Assembly: GCA_021777135.1 (NCBI GenBank)
Contig: JAJYDX010000003.1
Span: forward strand, 62,001 to 126,000
Length of the DNA stretch: 64,000 nt
Direction: 5' to 3'
From: a bacterium
Lineage (GTDB): Bacteria; SZUA-79; Acidulodesulfobacterales; Acidulodesulfobacteraceae
Below the pieces are notes generated by a model. That model had not been told where the DNA came from and made no database searches. It saw nothing but the letters and a program-made list of their open reading frames with translations. A program made the translations under genes and the position numbers. Shown in pieces: positions 45,309-49,411 of this stretch. Every line of letters starts with the position of its first letter. Positions within the stretch are counted from its first letter, which is position 1.

Positions 45309-46847
45309 TTATTTTGTCCCCGTAATTTTATAAGTCGTTCCAAAACCGGTATCCTCCAAAATGATGCCCTTTTCAAGAAGGGTTTTTCTTATTTCGTCAG
45401 CAGAAGCGTACTCTTTGTTCTTTCTAAATAAGTTTCGTTCGTCTATCAGTTTTTTTATTTCTTCTTCGCCGATAGAAACGCCGCCGTCCGCCTTGACATT
45501 AGCAGCCTTTAAATTCATTAAATTTAATTCAATAAACCGCCCTGGGTCTTCGTTTAGCAGCCCGAATATACCGGAAAGCGATTCTTTGATGAAAGACGCC
45601 GCATCGTCTAAAAAAGCTAAATCTTTTAAAATTATAACATTTTGCGCCATAGAATCATTAATAATTTTATTGGTTTTTCTTACAAGGTCGAATATTACGG
45701 ATATTGCTTTAGCGGTATTAAAATCATCGTTCATAGAGTTATAAAAATCGTTTTTATAATTTTCTATGTTTTCCGCCGCCAGAGCTCCAACGCTTCCTGC
45801 CGCTAAAGGGTTCCCGTCTTTTACGGTTATGCCGTTTTTATTTATTAAGAGTTTAAACTCGCCGTACAGGTTTACCGCCTGATAAAGCCTTATTAAACTT
45901 TGCCTCGCGCTTTCTACGCCTTCAAACGAAAAATCTATAAAAGACCTGTAATGCGTAAACATAAAAAAGAGCCTTAACACCTCAGGATGAAACTTGTCTA
46001 ACGCGTCCCTGACCGTAACAAAATTTTTAAGCGATTTTGACATCTTTTCGCTGTTTATATTGACAAAACCGTTGTGAATCCAGTAATTAACGAATTTTTT
46101 TCCGGTATAGCTCTCTGACTGGGCTATCTCGTTTTCATGATGCGGAAATATAAGGTCGGAACCTCCGCCGTGTATATCTATGCTTTCGCCTAGAAACTTC
46201 ATGCTCATCGCGGAACATTCTATGTGCCACCCCGGCCTGCCTTTTCCCCATGGACTGTCCCAAGAAGGTTCGTTTTCCTTAGATTTTTTCCAAAGGGCAA
46301 AATCGAGAAAATTTTCCTTTTCTTCATTTACCGGAATTCTGGAACCGGCAATAAGCTCTCCTATGTTTTTATGAGAAAGCTTGCCGTACCCCTCAAAAGA
46401 GTTTACCCTGAAAAACACGTCTCCGTTAGATTCATAGGCGTTGCCTTTTTCTATAAGACCTGAGGTCAGGCTTATCATTTCATTAATAGTTTCCGTGGCT
46501 TTCGGTTCGTAAGAAGGGGTTAAGACATTGAGCGCGTTCATATCTTTCTGGTATTCGCCTATGTACTTCGAGGAAATTTTTTCAACGGACGAATTTTCTT
46601 CGTTTGCTTTTTTTATGATTTTATCGTCTATATCGGTAAAATTTCTTACGTAAATAACTTTATAGCCGAGCTTAGTCAAATACCTGTAAATTACGTCGAA
46701 GGTAATATATGCCCTTGCGTGACCTATGTGCGAAAGGTCATATGCCGTAATTCCGCAAACATACATTAAGACCCTGTCTTTGTTTATCGGCTTGAAAAGC
46801 TCCTTGGAGAGGGAAAGAGTATTATAAATGTATATATTTCCGTGCAT
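45309..46847 (-). CDS. cysS: Cysteinyl-tRNA synthetase
   Basis: 512 residues, slightly longer than E. coli CysS (461). The HIGH-type motif is in CGITAYDLSHIGHARAYI and the zinc/substrate region in GRPGWHIECSAMSMKFLG. The HHENE motif is in DLIFPHHENEIAQSE and the KMSKS motif is in SEKMSKSLKNFVTV. A C-terminal helical domain (about 340-512) binds the anticodon. It charges tRNA-Cys. It is divergent from the HNH-motif gene. The start ATG 46847 lies in a 9-base inverted repeat (46846-46854 with 46892-46900). Confidence 0.96.
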   Translation of the reverse strand: MHGNIYIYNTLSLSKELFKPINKDRVLMYVCGITAYDLSHIGHARAYITFDVIYRYLTKLGYKVIYVRNFTDIDDKIIKKANEENSSVEKISSKYIGEYQKDMNALNVLTPSYEPKATETINEMISLTSGLIEKGNAYESNGDVFFRVNSFEGYGKLSHKNIGELIAGSRIPVNEEKENFLDFALWKKSKENEPSWDSPWGKGRPGWHIECSAMSMKFLGESIDIHGGGSDLIFPHHENEIAQSESYTGKKFVNYWIHNGFVNINSEKMSKSLKNFVTVRDALDKFHPEVLRLFFMFTHYRSFIDFSFEGVESARQSLIRLYQAVNLYGEFKLLINKNGITVKDGNPLAAGSVGALAAENIENYKNDFYNSMNDDFNTAKAISVIFDLVRKTNKIINDSMAQNVIILKDLAFLDDAASFIKESLSGIFGLLNEDPGRFIELNLMNLKAANVKADGGVSIGEEEIKKLIDERNLFRKNKEYASADEIRKTLLEKGIILEDTGFGTTYKITGTK

Positions 46848-46905
46848 ATCTAAAATTCAGCTAATTATTTCATTTTTATTTTAACGTCTTCTTTAGATAT
46901 ATATC

Positions 46906-46955
46906 TTAACATATAAGGGACTTTTTTTTAACATTTTTTTAACAAAAATTTAACC
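46906..46955 (+). promoter_or_regulatory. Four TTAAC elements in exact 11-bp phase (PhoB/PhoP-type box)
   Basis: TTAACA at 46906-46911, 46928-46933 and 46939-46944, and TTAACC at 46950-46955. The first is 22 bases from the second; the rest are 11 apart. Direct repeats with an 11-bp period are the known binding pattern of OmpR/PhoB-family regulators (Bacillus PhoP box TTAACA-type). The last element lies where a -35 would be, 17-18 bases upstream of a CATAAT -10-like hexamer (46974-46979). It would act on the HNH-motif gene. Confidence 0.55.
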
Positions 46956-47050
46956 TGAATGAAACATTGCCGTCATAATCCCGTAATATTAGTTTGATAT
47001 ATTATTGATATAACTAAAGCGTTTAAAATTTTGGGGCGTTAGGGGGACTA

Positions 47051-48382
47051 ATGGGGATTAATATATGGAACGGCAGAGATATTAACGCAGGGAGAGACAT
47101 CGATAAAGGCGGTTTAAATATTAAAAACTCCGCCGGCGGCAAAGAAACAGGGCGCCATTATTCCGATAAGGAATTAAACAGGCAAATAAATATCGCCGGC
47201 GGCGAAATGGAAATAAAAGCTTTATTAAATTCTGGCTTTATCATAAAAAACGACGAAGATTTTTTATTAAATACATACGGTTTTATTGATAAAAACGTAA
47301 GGGGTAATTTTAATAATTTATTTATGGAAAATAATTTTGTCGAGATTCAGGGGGCATCTTTTAACAGCATGACGTCTTACGGCAGAAATATAACTGTAAA
47401 AAATCTCGTTATGTCTTCTGAAAAATTCAACGAAATTAATTCTGCTAAATATATTAATAATTATTCTAAGTTCGATGAAAAATTCAACGGGGAATATAAA
47501 CTGTCTAAATTTACGCTAAACAACTATTTTGACCTTAAACAGGCATTTTTTGGAATAGACCTTAAAAACAGCGCGCCGGGGGTTATAGTATTAAGAAACG
47601 AGTCCGATGACGGCTTAAAACAGATAAAATACGAAGTTAAGGAATCTCCTTCTTATTATAAGTTTAAGCTTGAAAAAGACCGGCTGGAAAAGACTACGGC
47701 AAAACAGCCGGAGCTTGGAGTACTGAAAGATTACGATAACACTAAGGACGGATTTAAAAACATAAAGGTAGCCGTAAACGGAAAAAAAATTTTAGAAATA
47801 GAATCAATCCACAACTGGCAAAAAATTATGAATTATGTAAAATCCAGGGATATGCAGTTTATAAAAGGCTTAAAAACTGACGCGAAAGGAGAAATTTTAG
47901 ACAGGATAGAAGTCCACCATATAAAACAGCTCCAGGACGACGGCAAAGAAAACGTGGGTAATCTTATAGCTATAGCAGAAGATACGCACAGGCTTGCAGA
48001 CTCTTATAAAATCCTTATAGACAAAAACACCGGCATATACAGGGAACGGTTTTCGGAAACCGAAAGTCTCCGAAAACCGTCGCATAATAACATAATTAAC
48101 GTCGGAGGCAATAAAAAACTTTTAGAAACTATAGGAAATCTTGATTTAAACGATAAAATAATGCTTAACGGCATCAAATCAGACATAGAAACCGGCTCTG
48201 CCATGAGGCTCAATATGTTATTTGATACTGGAAATGATTTAAGATTATTATTCATAGACTGCAAAACGGGAGAAGAACTCAGGATACTGGCAGCTAAAAC
48301 TGACGACGAAGCCGATAGATATATAGCCAAAACCGCACTTATTAACACTATAAAGGAACTGGCTACCGCCGCCGTAATATAA
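47051..48382 (+). CDS. Unrecognised protein with an HNH-type motif
   Basis: 443 residues that I cannot place in a family. The first 270 residues are beta/alpha, Asn/Lys/Gly-rich, and start MGINIWNGRDINAGRD. Near residue 287 there is a compact HNH pattern: EVHHIKQLQDDGKENVGNL and then EDTHR, with His289-His290, Asn304 and His313 in the positions of HNH/His-Me finger nucleases. No signal peptide and no metal-binding Cys. The C-terminal 120 residues are helical. A ribosome-binding sequence AGGGGGA precedes ATG 47051. A TPR gene follows after 63 bases. Function unknown; a DNase role is only inferred. Confidence 0.75.
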   Translation: MGINIWNGRDINAGRDIDKGGLNIKNSAGGKETGRHYSDKELNRQINIAGGEMEIKALLNSGFIIKNDEDFLLNTYGFIDKNVRGNFNNLFMENNFVEIQGASFNSMTSYGRNITVKNLVMSSEKFNEINSAKYINNYSKFDEKFNGEYKLSKFTLNNYFDLKQAFFGIDLKNSAPGVIVLRNESDDGLKQIKYEVKESPSYYKFKLEKDRLEKTTAKQPELGVLKDYDNTKDGFKNIKVAVNGKKILEIESIHNWQKIMNYVKSRDMQFIKGLKTDAKGEILDRIEVHHIKQLQDDGKENVGNLIAIAEDTHRLADSYKILIDKNTGIYRERFSETESLRKPSHNNIINVGGNKKLLETIGNLDLNDKIMLNGIKSDIETGSAMRLNMLFDTGNDLRLLFIDCKTGEELRILAAKTDDEADRYIAKTALINTIKELATAAVI

Positions 48383-48445
48383 AAACTTGGCTTTAAAAAT
48401 ACTATGCAATAAATAACAATAACAGAGGAACGGTAATTAAATACT

Positions 48446-49411
48446 ATGGAAAAAAATCAAAAATACGAACTGTTTGCATCGCAGGTCGAAATATTTGAAA
48501 AATCTTTCTATGCTTATCTGGAACAATACAAAAAACACGAACCTGAGTCAAATAATGAATCTGCAAATCCTGACGGAATAAACGTGTTTATTTTTGAAGA
48601 ACTGCTCTGCAATTATTATAAAACGGTAATTTCCGCTTTAAAAAAATTAGCGGCATACGATAATAAACATATTCCGGTTCTAATAGAAACGTATCAAAAA
48701 CTATGGACATCTGCGCCGAGGCTTAAAGAAAAAAATTACATTTGCCCTTATTTATTCGACCTGTGCAAATTTTTGTACGAAATTAAAAAACCGGCAGCTC
48801 TAACCTTTTTTTATAATCTTCTTATTTACTGCAGGGATATACCTTTCTTGACTTTAAACGACGCGCCTGAAAAATCGATGGCGGACGCGTATAAACAAAA
48901 CGGGGAAGAAGACCCTTTCGCATATTTTAGAAAAGAAAGGGCGGAAAGGACCGCCGAAAGTTTCGACGAAGCGTTTTTTTATAAATCTTATAAAAAATTT
49001 TTCTTAATACTTTCTGGATGGCGGGAAAAAATAGACGGATACTATACTAAAGACGAAATATATTTTATGAACGGACTTTTTATCATGGACGAACTTTCCG
49101 ATTGCGTTTATTCCGGAGAAAAAACGATAAAAACGGAAAAATATTCTAAGAAAATAAACCGGAAGGAAATCTTCCGCGAATATTATGAAGCGGGAAAAGA
49201 CGGAAAAATATACGAGTACGTTTACGGCGGCGAAATTAATAAAAAAATATTGGATAATTATAAGAAAGCATTAAAGTATTTTAATCTGGCGATAGGTTAT
49301 AACCCTAATAATCCGAGATATTACTACGAATATGGCAGATGCCTTAAAAATTCTGGGAAATCCGGCGATGCGGAAATATTTTTCAAAAAAGCCTTCGACC
49401 TCAACGGATAA
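48446..49411 (+). CDS. TPR-containing protein next to the HNH-motif gene
   Basis: 321 residues. It is mostly helical and aromatic-rich. The last 60 residues show a clear tetratricopeptide-like pair: YKKALKYFNLAIGYNPNNPRYYYEYGRCLKNSGKSGDAEIFFKKAFDL. No signal peptide or membrane segment. It has AGAGGAAC upstream and follows the HNH-motif gene by 63 bases in the same direction, so a shared transcript is likely. It might be a partner or an immunity-type protein, but nothing in the sequence proves this. Confidence 0.7.
   Translation: MEKNQKYELFASQVEIFEKSFYAYLEQYKKHEPESNNESANPDGINVFIFEELLCNYYKTVISALKKLAAYDNKHIPVLIETYQKLWTSAPRLKEKNYICPYLFDLCKFLYEIKKPAALTFFYNLLIYCRDIPFLTLNDAPEKSMADAYKQNGEEDPFAYFRKERAERTAESFDEAFFYKSYKKFFLILSGWREKIDGYYTKDEIYFMNGLFIMDELSDCVYSGEKTIKTEKYSKKINRKEIFREYYEAGKDGKIYEYVYGGEINKKILDNYKKALKYFNLAIGYNPNNPRYYYEYGRCLKNSGKSGDAEIFFKKAFDLNG

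Follow-up and report, generated by a model that had tools for sequence, protein, structure and literature searches.

A conserved HNH-motif gene and its TPR-type neighbour lie behind a Pho-box-class promoter array in a family of Candidatus Acidulodesulfobacterales

The window analysed here, a stretch of 64,000 nucleotides, lies within contig C76 of a 2.12-Mb genome from Candidatus Acidulodesulfobacterales, an acid-mine-drainage order (PMC6776010). The locus under study spans positions 46848 to 49411. On the plus strand, gene A (47051 to 48382, 443 amino acids) is followed after 63 bp by gene B (48446 to 49411, 321 amino acids), and both open reading frames agree with those given in an earlier note on this DNA. 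The divergent neighbour on the minus strand is cysS (45309 to 46847), which lies outside the system and serves as a synteny marker beside A in all genera; 203 bp of intergenic DNA separate its start from gene A. This intergenic region contains, on the plus strand, an isolated TTAAC (46906 to 46910), an array of six 11-bp-phased half-sites of the Pho-box class (46928 to 46987), a probable −10 element, and a likely ribosome-binding site, GGGGG (47042 to 47046), proposed from its sequence. Comparisons within the family drew on 30 genomes from A's own family.

The A protein comprises a variable N-terminus (residues about 1–37), a conserved N-terminal domain (38–165), a middle beta region, an HNH core (about 256–317), and a C-terminal domain (357–434). 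Among 20 homologues, sharing 27–71% identity with A, the residues W256, Y262, R266, D267, H289, H290, G298, N301, N304, and H313 are invariant. The earlier note had read HNH spacing in His289, His290, Asn304, and His313, correctly as it turned out; the histidines are conserved in 20 of 20 homologues, and Asn301 is an equally invariant part of the motif (47915 to 47989, plus strand). In the HNH superfamily, a His acting as general base, a structural Asn or His, and a metal-binding His occupy such positions. In profile search of the protein, A scored 16.1 bits for PF01844, whose cut-off is 21.4. At E<1, this profile was matched by 18 of the 20 family members, and a diverged paralogue (L086) passed the cut-off with 26.1 bits. 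Conversely, a profile of the A family recovers an IscB-like HNH region. Two matches to A were rejected, one to a chemoreceptor-like protein (G074, E 0.007) and one to an IscB-like protein (G014) that has the HNH core alone in common with it.

The domains flanking the HNH core matched nothing in Pfam, NCBIfam, PHROGs, PADLOC, or PDB, and the PHROGs search of A returned just weak matches to the HNH tail. The structure search suggested for A gave no meaningful match; its AlphaFold model is poor at the HNH core, with confidence below 50 over residues 262–331. Judged from its sequence, A very probably adopts the beta-beta-alpha-metal fold of HNH nucleases and is likely to be active as a nuclease. 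A hydropathy check detected no signal peptide or transmembrane segment in A or B, and A is probably soluble and cytosolic.

The product of gene B is an all-helical protein of TPR type. Both TPR_8 and TPR_2 score above their cut-offs, in keeping with the earlier description of a TPR gene downstream of A. The AlphaFold model of B (mean pLDDT 81) is a helical repeat, and structure search with it returned generic TPR superhelices only. Wherever the contig extends far enough, A and B are adjacent on the same strand, with gaps of 13–175 bp and always beside cysS, so that the pair is conserved across genomes. Gene A was present in all 19 family genomes with a completeness of 90% or more and a contamination of 5% or less. 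Searches of 356 genomes outside the family, and of plasmids, phages, and viral contigs, turned up no full-length homologue. The claim of an undescribed system holds in part: the HNH superfamily is known, but this family and its regulatory company are nameless in Pfam, NCBIfam, PHROGs, and PADLOC.

We then turned to the intergenic region. TTAAC occurs at 46906, 46928, 46939, and 46950, exactly as had been noted before, and the triple TTAAC-n6-TTAAC-n6-TTAAC is found once in the 64 kb. These sites are the front of a longer array, whose six half-sites at 46928, 46939, 46950, 46961 (GAAAC), 46972 (GTCAT), and 46983 (GTAAT) are in perfect 11-bp phase. From 46928 the order reads TTAACATTTTT TTAACAAAAAT TTAACCTGAAT GAAACATTGCC GTCATAATCCC GTAATATTAGT TTGATATATT. 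The isolated TTAAC stands 22 bp, or two units, upstream of the array, and is partly kept in relatives as TTAAC, TTATC, or ATATC. Phased runs reached at most 4 half-sites when the window was put through 60 dinucleotide shuffles, and at most 3 in 5000 shuffles of the intergenic region, so that none attained the six observed; these counts are descriptive, because the half-site definition was chosen post hoc, with the array already seen. Conservation provides an independent test of the array: across eight congeneric sequences, 57 of 78 columns are invariant in the array block, compared with 26 of 125 in the rest of the intergenic region. Each of the six genera in the family also has the repeats ahead of its A orthologues, where the block scores 41–71 bits against R1, a 79-bp model made from 14 A-orthologue upstream blocks.

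The −10 assignment had to be revised. The hexamer CATAAT (46974 to 46979), previously taken as the −10, was rejected because it belongs to the fifth half-site, in phase with the others, and a conserved −10 sits 24 bp further downstream. The −10 is most likely TATATT in TTGATATATT (46998 to 47003, plus strand), whose spacing to the last half-site is as in pstS promoters and near that in pilus promoters.

The pstS promoters of the family, which were collected independently, consist of four units and a −10 in the same geometry as the A promoter. With R2, a model built solely from these pstS promoters, the A promoter was the sole good match in the window (20.2 bits, E 3e-5), and the alignment required an insertion of exactly 11 nt, equal to one extra unit. 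When R2 was run on the whole genome, the A promoter came fourth, behind pst, the gene for an exported protein whose family is unknown, and a single unexplained site; on the A loci of 22 relatives (300 kb), it was the top match in nearly all, and weak in genus g2. The reverse search, with an A-trained model, recovered the pst promoters. In one relative, the A promoter was the sole match to the E. coli box pattern (at most 3 mismatches) in 18 kb. The A promoter and the pst promoters of these organisms have the same box and the same geometry, and the reciprocal models support the PhoB-type control that had been suspected from the repeats. We consider control of A and B by a phosphate box to be well supported.

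Arrays of the same class were found before several other transcription units of this genome. They precede pstS-pstC-pstA-pstB-phoU; an 89-aa gene followed by a phosphate:H+ symporter gene (TIGR00887 is the best match, below the equivalog cut-off); a secretin-pilB-pilC-pilin operon, as well as prepilin genes; comM/YifB; and a T4SS operon encoding VirB4, VirB6, VirB10, and a VirD4/TraG-type coupling protein. A similar array lies between ssb and minor pilins. Of 39 high-scoring non-A sites examined in relatives, 15 stand before comM (4), secretin-pilB-pilC (6), another secretin (1), a prepilin operon (2), or a T4SS operon (2), and further ones before a symporter operon and an exported-protein gene. 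Regulon membership here rests on model searches, and what A and B have in common with pilus genes and comM is a promoter class, as judged from model scores and from the genes that follow. Promoters of the pilus, T4SS, and comM genes score weakly with the pst model, at 18 bits or below, so that the assignment of pilus-type sites to PhoB is inferential; a second regulator with similar half-sites may act at the pilus, T4SS, and comM promoters. In a literature search at title and abstract level, with incomplete coverage, no report of Pho control over pili, comM, and a nuclease together was found.

Further arrays are recorded as separate observations. A strong one (34 bits) lies 2.2 kb past the end of the window (G000:C76:128209-128284; L155 8210-8285), between a prepilin gene and a short ORF (91 aa; 106 aa in G010), and is conserved in a relative (L280). 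Near-identical arrays occur in L273, L274, L276, L277, L278, L281, L292, L295, L308, and L310, and also in L325; some of those in relatives stand ahead of a small membrane-type ORF of about 85 aa. By eye, the L325 array adjoins ssb, ParM-like, VirB2-like, and recombinase genes, as if conjugative elements carried the control box of the host. In genus g5 (L287, L306, and L312), arrays are located upstream of genes for exported proteins of 815–839 aa, which are followed by putative TonB/ExbB-like genes, again by eye. The gene for a RAYT-type (Y1_Tnp) transposase likewise follows an array, at G000:C16:1925-2000 (L121). Finally, a good Pho-type array at G000:C70:28475-28522 (L158) scores 23.5 bits against the pst model. 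It is directed, in antisense orientation, into the end of a methionine-synthase-like gene, and no target gene was seen.

The diverged A paralogue (L086) is found in genome G027 inside a conjugative element, where genes for pili and a T4SS surround it. The element encodes a TrwC-type relaxase, a helicase, a coupling protein, a secretin, and a pilus ATPase, and the neighbours of the paralogue include TPR, DHH-phosphoesterase, and Zn-phospholipase-C-like genes. A stand-alone 140-aa ORF that resembles the N-terminal domain of A lies just upstream of the paralogue (L086:8547-8969). The T4SS had suggested that A might be a relaxase, an idea that was discarded, as the element has a TrwC-type relaxase of its own.

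From the common promoters, the setting of the paralogue, and the phosphate-induced nucleases of V. cholerae, we infer that A and B are a Pho-controlled, probably cytosolic HNH nuclease and its TPR partner, which process DNA handled by pili and the T4SS. We put the probability of this reading at about 45%. The operon of A and B would be switched on by PhoB during phosphate starvation, with PhoB binding the 11-bp-phased half-sites that stand in for the −35 element. A would act as a soluble HNH endonuclease, and B as a TPR scaffold or adaptor that contacts A and keeps or sets it in place. Promoters of this kind would drive pst-phoU, the phosphate:H+ symporter, the type IV pilus operons, comM, and the DNA-type T4SS operon. 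Since uptake, pilus, comM, and T4SS genes have this promoter class in common, A and B would most likely cut the DNA that is brought in or handed over by pili or the T4SS, with phosphate-rich nucleotides released for salvage, or DNA readied for recombination, as the outcome.

A search for ComEC (PF03772) gave no match in this genome, compared with matches in 10 of 14 control genomes, although the genome does have comM, pilus operons, and a DNA-type T4SS that includes a coupling protein. Without ComEC, classical import of DNA to the cytosol would be unavailable by that route, and A, having neither signal peptide nor transmembrane segment, could reach outside DNA only through import of that DNA or through its own export. 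Export of A is what a second explanation holds: A would be a nuclease cargo of the co-regulated T4SS or pilus machinery, sent to neighbour cells or to the outside, with B as its TPR chaperone. The A promoter does belong to the same class as that of the T4SS operon with its coupling protein, the paralogue is part of a conjugative T4SS cluster and likewise has a TPR gene nearby, and the C-terminus of B weakly resembles SycD/LcrH chaperones, far below the cut-off. That resemblance, however, is generic for TPR proteins, and no immunity gene is seen adjoining A. Delivered toxins usually diversify, whereas this pair is a fixed core locus, and the C-terminus of A has no positively charged tail of the kind found in some T4SS substrates. 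We regard the cargo explanation as unlikely.

The same promoters could be read as those of a stress regulon, with phosphate as one of its triggers, in which A and B are induced together with ComM and pili as accessories of DNA repair or recombination, for example in branch processing or in the removal of damaged or foreign DNA. In favour of such a role, comM/YifB promoters carry the array in this genome and in four relatives, a similar array occupies the ssb/minor-pilin intergenic region, and A and B are a core, vertically inherited gene pair. On the other side, A and B show no fusion to, or neighbour from, a known repair pathway, and the genes that the pst model ties most strongly to the array are those for phosphate uptake. 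An accessory role in repair or recombination is improbable in our estimate.

This genome encodes two OmpR-type winged-helix regulators only, PhoB and RR2. PhoB (C31:31523-32212) has TIGR02154 as its best match but falls below the equivalog cut-off (248.8 versus 296.2), and its recognition helix is RTVDVHIRRLR. If RR2, together with its kinase, bound the array instead, the phosphate link would be a coincidence of similar half-sites, and this seems to us quite improbable. RR2 is indeed encoded here, the divergent region that separates it from the symporter operon contains an array, and OmpR-family regulators have half-site types in common. However, no RR2 orthologue was found in the g3, g4, g5, and g6 genomes, all of which retain the array before A. 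In g3 (G017), g5 (G019, G022), and g6 (G020), where the A and pst arrays both persist, the sole full-length OmpR-type regulator seen is PhoB-like; in g4 (G018), neither RR2 nor a PhoB-like regulator was found. In addition, the pstS model matches the A promoter, and the array next to RR2 points at the phosphate symporter operon, an arrangement repeated in a relative (L288). Self-regulation of RR2 through this neighbouring array was rejected, as its orientation and TIGR00887 indicate the phosphate symporter instead. Because three genera without RR2 keep both arrays, PhoB is the likeliest regulator and the best candidate to bind the A array; a second OmpR-type regulator is unlikely for it, given its absence from genera that keep the array.

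A toxin–antitoxin or anti-phage defence pair, the earlier note's "toxin with partner", is very improbable: an HNH nuclease with a smaller partner gene would suit such systems, in which nucleases are common, but distribution (one fixed core locus in all good genomes, neither patchy nor mobile, and absent from the plasmids, phages, and viral contigs searched), synteny (conserved neighbours in all genera), and PADLOC (no matching model) speak against it, and the promoter class is common to phosphate and pilus genes.

The preferred reading of A and B as a phosphate-controlled nuclease system has a bolder extension, which we consider doubtful. In it, one phosphate regulator would run the transporters, the pili, a ComEC-independent DNA-type T4SS, ComM, and A and B, and this acidophile family would capture and cut DNA for its phosphate by an undescribed route with A and B as the nuclease. 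It is a long-standing question whether DNA uptake serves bacteria mainly for food or for genes, and phosphate-type promoters on pumps, pili, comM, DNA-type secretion, and a nuclease would open the food hypothesis to direct tests. For a core nuclease family that has no name and belongs to uncultured bacteria, probably of acid mine drainage, the promoter array provides a first regulatory context.

Compared with known systems, A resembles the HNH superfamily (PF01844 and IscB-like HNH) in the pattern W..(I/V)..Y...RD ... HH(I) ... GG..N..NL ... H. It differs from that superfamily in its family-specific flanking domains, which have no known match, and from the IscB-like protein in lacking the Cys knuckle, A having one Cys in all. 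The E. coli-type Pho box is 11-bp-phased, and Bacillus PhoP repeats are of TTAACA type. The A array is like PhoB/Pho-box promoters in its 11-bp phase, in its half-sites [GT]TAAC and GTCAT, in replacing the −35, and in a −10 at a fixed distance. It departs from them in having six half-sites rather than four and in the GTCATAAT unit, which is common to the pilus and comM promoters. The extracellular nucleases Dns and Xds of V. cholerae are raised under phosphate limitation and make DNA usable as a phosphate source (PMC3212620). Unlike these, A has no signal peptide, is accompanied by a TPR partner, and has the promoter class of pili and the T4SS. EndA of D. radiodurans is likewise predicted to be cytoplasmic, with no signal peptide (PMC11784314). 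Competence regulons, with their type IV pilus, ComM, ssb, and EndA-type nucleases, are paralleled here in that pilus genes and comM share the promoter class of A and B and a similar array lies at the ssb/minor-pilin intergenic region. They differ in that, in place of ComEC, this genome has a T4SS with coupling protein under control of the array, and the boxes are of Pho type.
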